The position numbers were made by a program, and so were the translations under genes. From positions 1-64,000 of the forward strand of contig PBPC01000065.1 in NCBI GenBank assembly GCA_002724575.1: DNA of 64,000 nucleotides, given 5' to 3'. Of the stretch, positions 9,319 through 14,123 are shown one piece after another; within the stretch, counting starts at the first letter, position 1; each line of letters begins with the position of its first letter. The DNA comes from Gemmatimonadota bacterium (GTDB lineage Bacteria; Gemmatimonadota; Gemmatimonadetes; Longimicrobiales; Gaopeijiaceae). Below the pieces are notes generated by a model. It saw only the letters and a list, made by a program, of their open reading frames with translations. It was not told the DNA's origin and did no database searches.

Positions 9319-10566
9319 ATGTCAAAAGCACTCAACGGTGTGAGAATCCTAGATATGACCCATGTGCAGTCAGGACCGACCTGCACCCAGATTCTAGCTT
9401 GGTTTGGAGCTGACGTGATCAAGGTAGAGCGGCCGGGCTCAGGTGATATTACACGCAATCAATTACGCGACGTTGCTGATGCAGATAGCCTCTATTTCAC
9501 GATGCTAAACGCCAATAAGCGGAGTATCACACTGAACCCGAAGACGGATGCAGGGAAGGAGATCTTCACCAGGCTAATCGAAGAATGTGACGTCATGGTC
9601 GAGAACTTTGGACCAGGCGCTATTGATAGAATGGGATTTCCATGGGAGAAAATCCAAGAAATCAATCCTCGGTTGATCTATGCTTCAATCAAAGGGTTCG
9701 GACCTGGGCCCTATGACGATTGCAAGGTCTATGAGAACGTAGCGCAGTGCACGGGAGGAGCGGCATCGACGACTGGACAGATTGGAGGAGTTCCTACTGT
9801 TACAGGTGCTCAAATCGGGGATTCCGGTACTGGTCTCCACCTCGTAGTGGGTGTCTTAGCTGCTCTGTTTCAGCGTGAGGCGAGTGGAAAGGGTCAACGT
9901 GTAACCTGTGCGATGCAGGACTCTGTGCTCAATCTTTGTCGTGTAAAGTTGCGCGATCAACAAAGGTTGACGCATGGCCCACTAACAGAGTATCCACAAT
10001 ACCCTAACGGTGAGTTTGGTGATGCAGTTCCCCGTGCAGGGAACGCATCTGGTGGTGGACAACCTGGTTGGATTGTGAAGTGCAAGGGCTGGGAAACTGA
10101 TCCAGATGCTTACATCTATGTCATTGCTCAGGCTCAGGCCTTTTCTGGATTAGCGGAGGCCATCGGTCGTGCCGATTGGCTTGATGATCCAGAATGGAAT
10201 AGCCCAGGAGCCCGTCTCCCTAAGCTCGATGAGATGTTCGAGGAGATTGAGAAGTGGACAATGACTAAGGATAAGATGGAAGCCATGGCGATACTAAACC
10301 CATTGAATGTGCCGTGTGGTCCGATCTTGTCCATGGGTGAGCTAGCCCAGGAGGAGTCCCTGCGACAGACTGGGACTGTAGTGGAGGTTGACCACCCAGA
10401 GAGAGGAAAATACCTGACGGTTGGAAATCCGATTAAACTGTCTGACTCACCAGCTGAAGTAGAGCGGTCACCCCTTTTAGGTGAGCATACGGAAGAGATC
10501 CTTACAAATGTTGTTGGCCTTGACCCAGAAGGCATAGAAAGAGCTCGTGAGCAGGGTGCTATCTAA
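9319..10566 (+). CDS. frc: formyl-CoA:oxalate CoA-transferase (CaiB/BaiF family, class III)
   Basis: A 415-residue class III CoA-transferase that moves CoA from formyl-CoA to oxalate. From my memory of the Oxalobacter formigenes enzyme, many blocks match closely: [59 protein letters not shown] and the catalytic glycine loop GGGQPGW (about 245-251), followed by KCKGWETD. The catalytic aspartate that forms the acyl-anhydride is Asp168 in [11 protein letters not shown]. The start ATG 9319 has an AAGGATT ribosome site. Length fits the family (about 428). No oxalyl-CoA decarboxylase, its usual partner, is in the window, so the specificity rests on sequence resemblance alone. Confidence 0.85.
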
Positions 10567-10601
10567 CGGATTTCGCTTCAAAGAAAGTCCAGGAGGACTG
10601 T

Positions 10602-11672
10602 GTGAAACCCACATATAACGTGCTTATTCTGGGTGCTTCTTATGGCTCTTTGTTTGGCACTAAACTTTTGTTGGCCGGACACTCGGTTACCCTGGTTTGT
10701 ACTCCGCCTACGGCCGAGCTGATCAACCGTGAGGGAACCCTGGTGCGATTTCCAATCCGGGGTCGCGATAACCTCGTTGAAATTCACTCGAGTACTCTTA
10801 CGGGTCAGCTGTCCGCTAGTGCGCCTGAGGGAGTTGAACCGACAGAATTCGACCTGGTTGTGCTAGGAATGCAGGAGTCGCAATACAGCTCCGAGGGTGT
10901 TCGGGAAATGATGGCAAGGATTGCAGCTGCTCATTTACCGAGTCTGGCGATTATGAATATGCCTCCATTGCCGTACCTCGCTCGAATTCCAGGACTGGAG
11001 ACTGATGAACTTCAAGGTTGTTTCGTGGAACCAAGTGTTTGGGATGGGTTCGATCCGGGCCTCGTCTCACTAGCGAGTCCAGACCCTCAGGCTTTTCGTC
11101 CGCCGGAAGAACCTAAGAACGTTTTACAGGTTGGATTGCCTACGAATTTCAAGGCTGCACATTTTGAAAATGAAGAACACACCCAGATACTGCGCGATCT
11201 CCAAGCTGACATAGAAGCAAGCCTATATGATCCTGGTGACGGGGCCACAGAGATCCCAGTAAAGCTTAAAGTGCACGACTCTATCTTTGTGCCGTTAGCG
11301 AAATGGCCCATGTTGCTTGCAGGAAACTACCGGTGTGTCCAGCACGACGGCATGATCTCTATCCAGGAAGCGGTGCATGGGGACATCGAAATGGCTAAAG
11401 ACGCGTACGGTTGGGCAGGACAACTCTGCACAAATCTTGGAGCTGCGGAAACTGATCTGGTCCCGTTCGAAAAATATGCAAGAGCTGCTGAAGGACTTGC
11501 CAAACCATCGTCCGCTGCGAGGGCTCTATTCAGTGGAGCAAAATATATAGAGCGTGTTGACTGCTTGATTCAAAGAATAGCGAACCAACAAGGGCTTCAG
11601 TCCGATATTGTAGATAACATCGTAGACCTTGTAGATGAACGTTTAGGAAAAAATCGCGCGTTACTTGATTGA
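10602..11672 (+). CDS. ketopantoate reductase-like NAD(P)-dependent dehydrogenase
   Basis: The start is GTG 10602 with a strong AGGAGG eight bases upstream. The N-terminus VLILGASYGSLFG is a modified Rossmann dinucleotide motif in the pattern of PanE/ApbA reductases (2-dehydropantoate 2-reductase). The C-terminal helical domain contains LAKWPMLLAGN, resembling the family's Lys and Asn active-site block. At 356 residues it is longer than typical PanE (about 300). Lying between an oxalate CoA-transferase and a glyoxylate-type aminotransferase, it could act on a two- or three-carbon oxo-acid rather than ketopantoate; this is inference. The gene ends 44 bases before the next start. Confidence 0.7.
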   Translation: MKPTYNVLILGASYGSLFGTKLLLAGHSVTLVCTPPTAELINREGTLVRFPIRGRDNLVEIHSSTLTGQLSASAPEGVEPTEFDLVVLGMQESQYSSEGVREMMARIAAAHLPSLAIMNMPPLPYLARIPGLETDELQGCFVEPSVWDGFDPGLVSLASPDPQAFRPPEEPKNVLQVGLPTNFKAAHFENEEHTQILRDLQADIEASLYDPGDGATEIPVKLKVHDSIFVPLAKWPMLLAGNYRCVQHDGMISIQEAVHGDIEMAKDAYGWAGQLCTNLGAAETDLVPFEKYARAAEGLAKPSSAARALFSGAKYIERVDCLIQRIANQQGLQSDIVDNIVDLVDERLGKNRALLD

Positions 11673-11716
11673 GATACCACAAAGATCACTTCAACCATAT
11701 TTCGAACGGAGATAGC

Positions 11717-12847
11717 ATGACATCGAATGGACAGTCAATCGGACAGCTTCGCCACGAGCCGAGGGTGTTGCTTGGACCGGGACCGAGTAACGTCCATCCA
11801 CGTGTTTTTCAGGCGATGACTAGTCCGATACTTGGATATCTTGATCCTGATTTTCTTGCTGTCATGGATGATAGCATGGAGCTATTGAGGTATCTCTTTC
11901 AGACAAAAAATGAGGTTGCGATTACGCTCCCAGGTACCGGGATGTCAGGGATGGAGGCGTCGATTTGTAATGTCGTTGAACCTGGTGATGAAGTGATCGT
12001 CGGGATTCATGGCTTCTTTGGGCAAAGAATGGCCGAGATCGTTGAACGGCATGGGGGTACTGCAATCCGGGTGGAAGTGGACTTTGGCGATGTAGTTCAG
12101 GTTTCACAGATCGCGGATGCCTTAGATCAACATCCCGACGCCAAGATGGTCGGGGTGGTACACGGAGAGACATCTTCTGGTGTAGGGCAGCCGCTTTCAG
12201 AGCTAGGAGGCCTTGTCCGTAGTCGGGACAAACTCTTCCTAGTTGATACTGTGTGCTCCCTTGGGGGGAGTGACATTCGGGTAGACGAGTTCAACATCGA
12301 CATCTGCTATAGCGGTGGTCAGAAGTGTATCGGCGGTCCAGCGGGCATCTCATGCATTACCCTGAATGATCGAGCTATGTCCCTCATAGAGAGTCGTAGC
12401 AAGTCTGTCGACACTTGGTACCTCGATTTGGCCCTCATTTGTAAGTACTGGTTTGGTGACAGAGCCTATCATCACACTGCACCAGGCCCGATGGTCTTTG
12501 CACTTCGTGAAGCACTCCGAATGATTCAGGAAGAAGGATTGCAGGAACGCTTTGCTCGCCATCAAAGGTGTGGTGACCTGCTCAAGAAGGAATTAACGGG
12601 GATGGGTCTCGAATTATTCGGGGATCCGGAGCATCGATTGCCGATGTTAACCTGCGTTCTTATCCCGGACGGCGTAGAAGACGCTGTGGTAAGAAAACGG
12701 CTTTTAGACGAGTACCGGATAGAGATCGTAGGCGGGTTTGGTCCGCTGAAAGGGAAGGCGTGGCGCATTGGTCTCATGGGGTACAGTTCTCAGGAGCGTC
12801 ATGTCCATTATCTGATTGCGGCTCTTCGGGAAATTCTTGGCCGCTAA
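11717..12847 (+). CDS. class V PLP aminotransferase, alanine/serine-glyoxylate type
   Basis: I start the protein at ATG 11717, preceded by ACGGAGATAGC; an upstream in-frame TTG at 11669 overlaps the previous stop but has no ribosome site. The 376-residue protein has the fold-type I class V pattern: LLGPGPSNVHPRVFQAM at the N-terminus, LPGTGMSGMEASI, a VVHGETSSGV stretch, and the PLP lysine Lys203 in SGGQKCIGGPAG. Such enzymes convert glyoxylate to glycine using alanine or serine as amino donor. Together with the oxalate CoA-transferase and reductase-like genes upstream it suggests glyoxylate disposal. The exact donor cannot be read from sequence, and phosphonate or other amino donors are possible. 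Confidence 0.85.
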   Translation: MTSNGQSIGQLRHEPRVLLGPGPSNVHPRVFQAMTSPILGYLDPDFLAVMDDSMELLRYLFQTKNEVAITLPGTGMSGMEASICNVVEPGDEVIVGIHGFFGQRMAEIVERHGGTAIRVEVDFGDVVQVSQIADALDQHPDAKMVGVVHGETSSGVGQPLSELGGLVRSRDKLFLVDTVCSLGGSDIRVDEFNIDICYSGGQKCIGGPAGISCITLNDRAMSLIESRSKSVDTWYLDLALICKYWFGDRAYHHTAPGPMVFALREALRMIQEEGLQERFARHQRCGDLLKKELTGMGLELFGDPEHRLPMLTCVLIPDGVEDAVVRKRLLDEYRIEIVGGFGPLKGKAWRIGLMGYSSQERHVHYLIAALREILGR

Positions 12848-12950: not shown

Positions 12951-14123
12951 ATGGACCGGCGCACACTCCTGAGAACTGGTAGTATGGGAATCTTGGGTCT
13001 CGGCTTGGGAGGCTGTTTCCGAGGTTCAGCATCACCTTTGTCGCCGCACAAGCCACTCCCCCTTCTCAAGGTTGCCTGGGATCGTGTGATACACACGACT
13101 GTAGGTCTTCGACCCCATAGGCCAGGGGGCTTTGTGCTTAGAGCGGAACGGTTCGGTGATAAGACCCTGATCCACAATTATGGACACGGTGGATCAGGTA
13201 TGTCGCTGTCCTGGGGTACAGGATCTATGGCTGCAGACCTTGCACTAGAGAGTGAGCTCCGCGAAGTGGCGGTGATTGGATGTGGGGTCGCTGGTTTGAC
13301 GACTGCGAGACAGCTACAACGTCGGGGTTTCTCGGTAACAATTTATGCACTCTCGGTCCCTCCAGATACTACGTCAAACATGTCTCTGGCTGCATGGACT
13401 CCGACTTCGGGCCTAGTCGATCAAAGACTTCGAACGTCCGCATGGGATCTTCAGCTAAGGCTGGCAGCGAGGATTGCTTACAGACAACTTCAGCTTCTTA
13501 CCGGGCCGGAATACGGAGTTTCATGGATTGATAGTTATGCTTTGAGTGACTCAGCTCCGAGGGAGCGTTCAACACAGGAGGACCAGGATCCATTGCTTCC
13601 CTCTGATTTGAGGCTCCCAACGATATCTCTGGGACCTGGGGAGCATCCCTTCCCGACGCGATACGCAAGTCAACGTGTCACCTTGCGGATTGAGCCGTCC
13701 ATTTATCTGGATGCTTTGGTGCGCGACGTCATGCGATTCGGTGGGCGCATAGTAATTAGGAAGTTTGATACTCCTAGAGACCTTATGACACTTGATGAGT
13801 CGATCATTATCAACTGCACGGGACTCGGATCACATGACCTGTTTGGAGATACAGAGCTGGTACCTCTGAAAGGGCAATTGACGCTTCTGGTACCGCAGCC
13901 GGAGGTGAACTATGCGACGTTCGGGGGCCTTCAGGGGACTGGTGGGTTCATCCACATGCAACCCCGCAGTGATGGGATTGCCTTGGGAGGCACTTCGGAA
14001 GAGGGTAATTGGTCGCTTGAGCCAGACGAGAATGCTCGGCAACGCATTGTTGAAGCACATCGTGCCTTGTTCGCAGCCATGAGGGGTAGTCCGAGCTTAG
14101 AGCCAGCGATATCGCTTTCGTAG
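12951..14123 (+). CDS. exported FAD-dependent oxidase, apparently a circularly permuted D-amino-acid oxidase
   Basis: A 390-residue flavoprotein with a twin-arginine-like signal that also has a lipobox (MDRRTLLRTG, then LGLGGC), so a Tat-exported lipoprotein is likely. Ordinary D-amino-acid oxidases begin with the FAD-binding GxGxxG strand and end with GFRPxRP and IHNYGHGG motifs. Here the order is reversed: VGLRPHRPGG (51-60) and IHNYGHGGSGMSLSWG (74-89) come first, then VIGCGVAGLTTAR (108-120), then the later FAD elements including INCTGLGS near residue 288 and LGGTSEEGNWS near the C-terminus. The protein then stops shortly after, without a second NYGHGG copy. The arginine that binds the substrate carboxylate in DAO would be Arg54. 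The substrate is unknown; D-amino acids or a related amine are plausible. Confidence 0.85.
   Translation: MDRRTLLRTGSMGILGLGLGGCFRGSASPLSPHKPLPLLKVAWDRVIHTTVGLRPHRPGGFVLRAERFGDKTLIHNYGHGGSGMSLSWGTGSMAADLALESELREVAVIGCGVAGLTTARQLQRRGFSVTIYALSVPPDTTSNMSLAAWTPTSGLVDQRLRTSAWDLQLRLAARIAYRQLQLLTGPEYGVSWIDSYALSDSAPRERSTQEDQDPLLPSDLRLPTISLGPGEHPFPTRYASQRVTLRIEPSIYLDALVRDVMRFGGRIVIRKFDTPRDLMTLDESIIINCTGLGSHDLFGDTELVPLKGQLTLLVPQPEVNYATFGGLQGTGGFIHMQPRSDGIALGGTSEEGNWSLEPDENARQRIVEAHRALFAAMRGSPSLEPAISLS

Follow-up and report, generated by a model that had tools for sequence, protein, structure and literature searches.

A natural circular permutant in the D-amino-acid oxidase family of flavoproteins, predicted to be exported and lipid-anchored

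Can a flavoprotein of the D-amino-acid oxidase (DAAO) family have its chain cut and rejoined elsewhere while retaining its fold, and what might such a protein do? The question is raised by an open reading frame (ORF) in contig PBPC01000065.1 of a Gemmatimonadota bacterium; the window, i.e. the whole stretch of DNA analysed, is 64,000 nucleotides long. A preliminary description, made from the sequence alone, placed the ORF at 12951-14123 and quoted motifs in the reverse of the order of normal family members, proposing a circular permutation. Both coordinates and motifs are correct on re-reading the sequence. VGLRPHRPGG and IHNYGHGGSG lie near the start (residues 51-60 and 74-83), GCGVAG at 110-115, INCTGLGS (placed near 288) at 287-294 and LGGTSEEGNWS near the end at 345-355; a second NYGHGG is absent from the ORF. 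The features of the gene are as follows.

12951-14123, + strand: complete gene of 390 amino acids plus stop, a circularly permuted DAO-family FAD oxidoreductase (ORF, Pfam, phmmer)
12951-13016, + strand: putative Tat lipoprotein signal peptide, residues 1-22, MDRRTLLRTGSMGILGLGLGGC (MDRRTLLRTG...LGGC), with RR at 3-4, then a short run of hydrophobic residues and an LGGC lipobox ending at Cys22
13017-13079, + strand: linker from leader to fold, residues 23-43, in part of low model confidence
13080-13256, + strand: permuted segment, residues 44-102, equivalent to the canonical C-terminus (about 270-330 in pig DAAO); it contains GLRPHRP (Arg54, equivalent to pig Arg283) and IHNYGHGGSG, followed by a helix
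13257-14093, + strand: residues 103-381, equivalent to canonical residues 1 to about 265 (Pfam, phmmer, alignment, model); it holds the GCGVAG dinucleotide motif, the substrate domain, INCTGLGS, LGGTSEEGNWS and His335 (at the position of pig Tyr228)
13239-13280, + strand: joint between the old C-terminus and the old N-terminus, residues 97-110, LALESELREVAVIG, with a predicted helix at 80-98 and strand at 105-109

In a phmmer comparison with the PDB, residues 104-380 match 13-277 of the D-aspartate oxidase 6rkf (i-E 8e-19), which we take to be a Chaetomium protein, and residues 48-100 match 281-336 of the same protein (i-E 1e-5). The former correspond to the N-terminal 80% of D-amino-acid and D-aspartate oxidases, and the latter to their C-terminal motif region. 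The same reverse-order pair of matches is given by pig DAAO and by Rasamsonia DAAO. The Pfam DAO profile (PF01266) matches with 111.2 bits against a cut-off of 27.9, split into two stretches; in the host genome profile positions 301-353 fall at C51:13080-13241, upstream of positions 2-299 at 13266-14078. The canonical linear order of PF01266 does not occur in the native sequence but is regained by relinearising, i.e. by moving residues 44-102 behind 103-381. This gives one match covering positions 2-353 of the 353 in the profile, and the score rises from the native value to 124.9 bits. It had been expected that a duplicated copy of the sequence would give one contiguous full-length Pfam match. 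No contiguous match was obtained, probably because roughly 60 residues of C-terminal tail, leader and linker lie between the copies.

Relatives that were fetched and classified comprise 103 distinct ORFs, of which 80 are permuted and 23 canonical. A second test of the order used an HMM built solely from canonical relatives. This gave two matches in swapped order in every one of the 80 permuted ORFs, and once these had been relinearised a single match extended over >90% of the HMM in 63. In 76 of the 80 the joint between the old termini takes up 0-10 residues, and the new termini map to a region that spans 4-20 residues in the canonical relatives. The proposed permutation is thus upheld by the pairwise matches, by Pfam and by the canonical-only HMM on 80 homologues, as well as by a confident model and by conservation across five phyla (see below). 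On the sequence evidence the swapped order lies well outside what chance would give, and circular permutation is as good as certain.

We propose that the protein arose by natural circular permutation within the D-amino-acid-oxidase branch of the PF01266 flavoproteins and is exported and lipid-anchored, with a mechanism based on Arg54, and we put the probability of this complete reading at roughly 0.82. The cut in the canonical chain would lie at about pig residue 265-270, in the loop past the helix next after LGGTxxxGxW, with a few residues bridging the old C-terminus and the old N-terminus. This would place at the front a strand-strand-strand-helix piece of 55 residues, which carries the carboxylate-binding Arg and the YGHGG loop, the order being given by the sequence and the fold being predicted, and the new N-terminus would carry the twin-arginine leader with its lipobox. 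The protein is expected to fold with FAD in the cytoplasm, to be exported in folded form by Tat and to be held outside the cytoplasm by its lipid anchor. In the expected mechanism an amino or imino acid would be bound at its carboxylate by Arg54 and would pass a hydride from its alpha carbon to FAD. Hydrolysis of the imino acid would yield a 2-oxo acid and ammonia, with either O2 or a periplasmic electron carrier reoxidising FADH2.

Nearly all of the permuted proteins carry such a leader. By pattern a Tat-type RR (or KR) motif is present in 71 of the 80, and RRxW was read in four more, so that about 75 have an RR-type leader; a lipobox-like motif is present in 51. These calls are based on pattern and reading. 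Four leaderless proteins (L048, L050, L052 and L071) cluster in the tree, and a fifth (L070) is cut by a stop. No RR-type leader was read in the 23 canonical relatives, most of which start directly at the FAD motif. The Tat-type lipoprotein signal noted in the preliminary description is supported by its motif and by its conservation in relatives, and the host genome encodes TatC (two PF00902 matches over the cut-off). Export and lipid anchoring outside the cytoplasm are predicted on this basis.

The active site was compared in a relinearised alignment of 79 permuted and 23 canonical rows, using pig DAAO numbering. The carboxylate-binding Arg283 (Arg54 here) is invariant in both groups (79/79 and 23/23), as are the GxGxxG glycines that bind FAD in all 79 permuted rows (GCGVAG in the query). 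His307, Tyr309, Gly310, His311 and Gly312 are retained in nearly all rows. By contrast the position of Tyr228, which is Tyr in 22 of the 23 canonical rows, is His in 32, Tyr in 28 and Ser in 7 of the 79 permuted rows; in the query it is His335. The positions of Gln53 and Tyr55 are both Thr in the query, and the latter is mostly Thr or Ser in the permuted rows. It is likely that carboxylate binding is retained and that the pocket is altered. The presence of His335 in place of Tyr228, with Thr at both Gln53 and Tyr55, suggests that the substrate is probably not that of mammalian DAAO, and since the Tyr228 equivalent is so varied the substrate may differ widely within the permuted family. The reaction would be the FAD-dependent oxidation of a carboxylate-bearing substrate. 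The name D-amino-acid oxidase denotes relationship, and as an activity it is putative.

Within the genus the gene lies in a fixed order of neighbours, i.e. Nramp-like transporter, formyl-CoA transferase, Rossmann-type protein, class-V aminotransferase, permuted gene, GNAT and glycosyltransferase. The formyl-CoA transferase is over the NCBIfam oxalate_frc cut-off, while the Rossmann-type (ApbA-like) protein has no Pfam match. We note that the class-V aminotransferase is close to the pyridoxamine-pyruvate, AEP and BhcA types, under their cut-offs. The region 9319-12847 is a possible glyoxylate/oxalate module adjoining the permuted enzyme in this genus. A conserved operon was considered and rejected, there being no common neighbourhood outside the genus and its near kin. 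In rhizobia the leaderless permuted gene is flanked by one gene for a ThDP enzyme and one for a berberine-bridge-like FAD enzyme. This arrangement would suit a pathway in which an amino acid is first converted to a 2-oxo acid, the expected product, and a ThDP enzyme that acts on 2-oxo acids then yields an aldehyde. Peptidase or amidase genes lie near other permuted genes (L146 at -1, L009:6158-7354, L051:266-1708, L139:4722-5909, L143:4181-5929 and L160:3959-5923), their families being beta-lactamase, S58, gamma-glutamyltranspeptidase, S15 and, on reading of the sequence, one resembling N-acyl-D-amino-acid deacylase. Exported peptidase and amidase neighbours may hint at peptide or D-amino-acid scavenging.

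It is conceivable that the protein is instead a permuted dehydrogenase of the DAO fold that feeds cytochrome c or quinone and acts on a substrate other than an amino acid, for example a hydroxy acid. Hydroxy-acid oxidases belong to the DAO-fold enzymes, and the predicted export and the replacement of Tyr228 would both suit such a role. The permuted homologue of Kozakia has a cytochrome c gene immediately after it, giving a hint of a respiratory acceptor. However, this neighbour is found in one locus only, the closest relatives by sequence and by fold are all D-amino-acid oxidases, and the carboxylate-binding Arg is invariant. We consider a dehydrogenase of this kind to be possible, if on balance unlikely.

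The fold of the permutant was predicted using AlphaFold, from an input of 55 sequences of one family, with plasmid-derived rows left out. The model has a pLDDT of 89.5 and a pTM of 0.88. Most of residues 41-380 lie at 90-99, and the permuted block at 96-98; values below 50 are confined to the leader region (1-26), with 47 for residues 21-30 and 83 for residues 31-40. Strands are predicted at 46-56, 62-68 and 71-77, then the helix at 80-98, which leads directly into the FAD-domain strand at 105-109. In a fold search of the PDB with this model, matches 1-33 are all DAAO or DASPO, with E down to 3e-15. They mostly comprise about 290 aligned columns, with TM up to 0.68 by target length in an order-dependent alignment. 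Such partial alignment is expected of an order-dependent aligner, which omits the permuted piece. As modelled, the fold is that of a D-amino-acid/D-aspartate oxidase.

The sequence would also be compatible with domain swapping, whereby the N-terminal block would be a separate domain resembling the C-terminus of DAAO, and the true C-terminal element would come from another subunit or from a domain-swapped dimer. Yet a second YGHGG block is present in none of the 80 ORFs, the existing block is confidently predicted within a monomer model, and Arg283 and the YGHGG residues are conserved to the same degree as in the canonical enzymes. We regard such an arrangement as highly improbable.

Permuted ORFs are present in at least five bacterial phyla, cultured strains included, and no ORF with both arrangements is found among the 103 classified. 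Profile searches matched the family in 57 of 249 genomes of Gemmatimonadota (at least four of these being canonical) and in 20 of 398 of Pseudomonadota (all permuted). They gave 16 permuted and 3 canonical among 199 genomes of Acidobacteriota, and 2 permuted and 16 canonical among 296 of Bacteroidota. Records of plasmids and other replicons add Niveispirillum, Rhizobium, Kozakia, Bradyrhizobium and the actinomycete Nonomuraea. Intermediates of tandem duplication, having a YGHGG block at both ends, were not found among the 103 ORFs.

The host genome is a MAG of 100 contigs that is 88.7% complete, and the preliminary description had allowed that fragments of two neighbouring genes might have been joined. 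A wrong join, by assembly or by local rearrangement, is ruled out by independent genomes, the same order being found in 80 distinct ORFs of five phyla and in complete replicons of Kozakia baliensis, Rhizobium ruizarguesonis and Bradyrhizobium elkanii, with a joint between the old termini that is short and consistent.

Some individual loci may be noted. One permuted homologue (G1141:C8, L124/L130) has about 42 extra residues at the joint of the old termini. Genome G985, from the Acidobacteriota search, has four permuted paralogues (L114, L129, L131 and L132), of which two lie on one contig at a distance of about 14 kb. At L110 (G017:C1:1967924-1968232) the leader and the permuted C-terminal-type segment alone were detected, with the FAD part absent; this is possibly a remnant or a frameshift. 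On plasmid pOM4 of Mesorhizobium onobrychidis (L053:3735-4798) the permuted gene is split at the FAD motif into two overlapping ORFs, the first ending ...VLGAGVMG and the second starting LTAATLL. A frameshifted pseudogene is one possibility, and two chains encoding one fold another.

An unrooted tree was built from 86 relinearised proteins, 66 of them permuted and 20 canonical. One branch with an SH-aLRT of 99 divides the two groups, so that a single permutation event suffices. The canonical order occurs in other enzymes of the DAO superfamily, which also fits the list from the fold search, and it follows that this order is ancestral. Rooting was attempted with two far DAO proteins of the host genome. 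Their terminal branches were 3.5 and 5.2 changes per column, five permuted rows were shifted to the canonical side and the split was unsupported (83/25). This root was rejected on account of the very long branches and the unsupported split, and the unrooted separation stands.

Why might the permutation have been kept? A one-time event could have been retained because the chain no longer starts in the first FAD-domain strand, which is buried, and so can bear an N-terminal Tat/lipid anchor; it would have founded a group of exported, membrane-anchored amino-acid oxidoreductases that pass electrons to the respiratory chain and not to O2. Taken as a whole we think this speculative and rather improbable. 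The association of permutation with export is correlative. Moreover the L-amino-acid deaminase of Proteus is a membrane-anchored enzyme with the DAO fold in canonical order, showing that export does not in general call for permutation.

Few flavoenzymes have been studied as much as DAAO, and the permuted proteins are a real and widespread structural variant of this classic enzyme family that is apparently unrecorded. A natural permutant in at least five phyla provides a ready experiment on the tolerance of a Rossmann-type FAD enzyme to cutting and rejoining, and should inform on which selection maintains such a rearrangement. A further implication is an oxidoreductase of amino-acid type located outside the cytoplasm, where peptidoglycan and peptides release D-amino acids. 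The Pfam match still passes its threshold, so that automatic annotation hides the permutation. It had been suspected that similar proteins might lie in databases with the permutation unremarked, and this is so; those annotated are called only 'FAD-dependent oxidoreductase'. Nothing relevant to a permuted DAAO or a permuted FAD-dependent oxidoreductase was found in 5.39 million open-access papers, a collection with few subscription papers and no bioRxiv preprints. A proteome paper on Asaia names D-amino acid oxidase among the proteins detected, not linked to the permuted family (PMC12502724).

Among known proteins, WP_070404188.1 of Kozakia and WP_304495191.1 of Bradyrhizobium elkanii belong to the same permuted family, and are annotated without mention of permutation. 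The rhizobial branch differs in having no export leader and in adjoining ThDP and berberine-bridge-like enzymes. Glycine oxidase ThiO, the C-domain of MnmC and the DadA-type D-amino-acid dehydrogenase are of the same superfamily and give weak NCBIfam matches to the permuted protein. However, they have the canonical order, and the permuted protein scores far under their curated cut-offs (50.5 bits against an equivalog cut-off of 250.8 for ThiO, TIGR02352). The nearest non-permuted relatives by profile are canonical bacterial DAO-family proteins of the same phyla (e.g. L126, L127, L092 and L094), which are alike in motifs and in the Arg, but are unpermuted, with no exported leader seen and with Tyr228 kept. 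The D-aspartate and D-amino-acid oxidases (6rkf, pig and human DAAO, and Rasamsonia DAAO 7ct4) have the PF01266 fold in common with the permuted protein, with 24-27% identity in fold alignment, and the GxGxxG, GLRP-R-RP Arg, HNYGHGG loop, CTG and LGGT motifs are common to both. The permuted protein differs from them in the order of its segments, in its RR/lipoprotein leader, in the His at Tyr228 and in the Thr at pig Gln53 and Tyr55.
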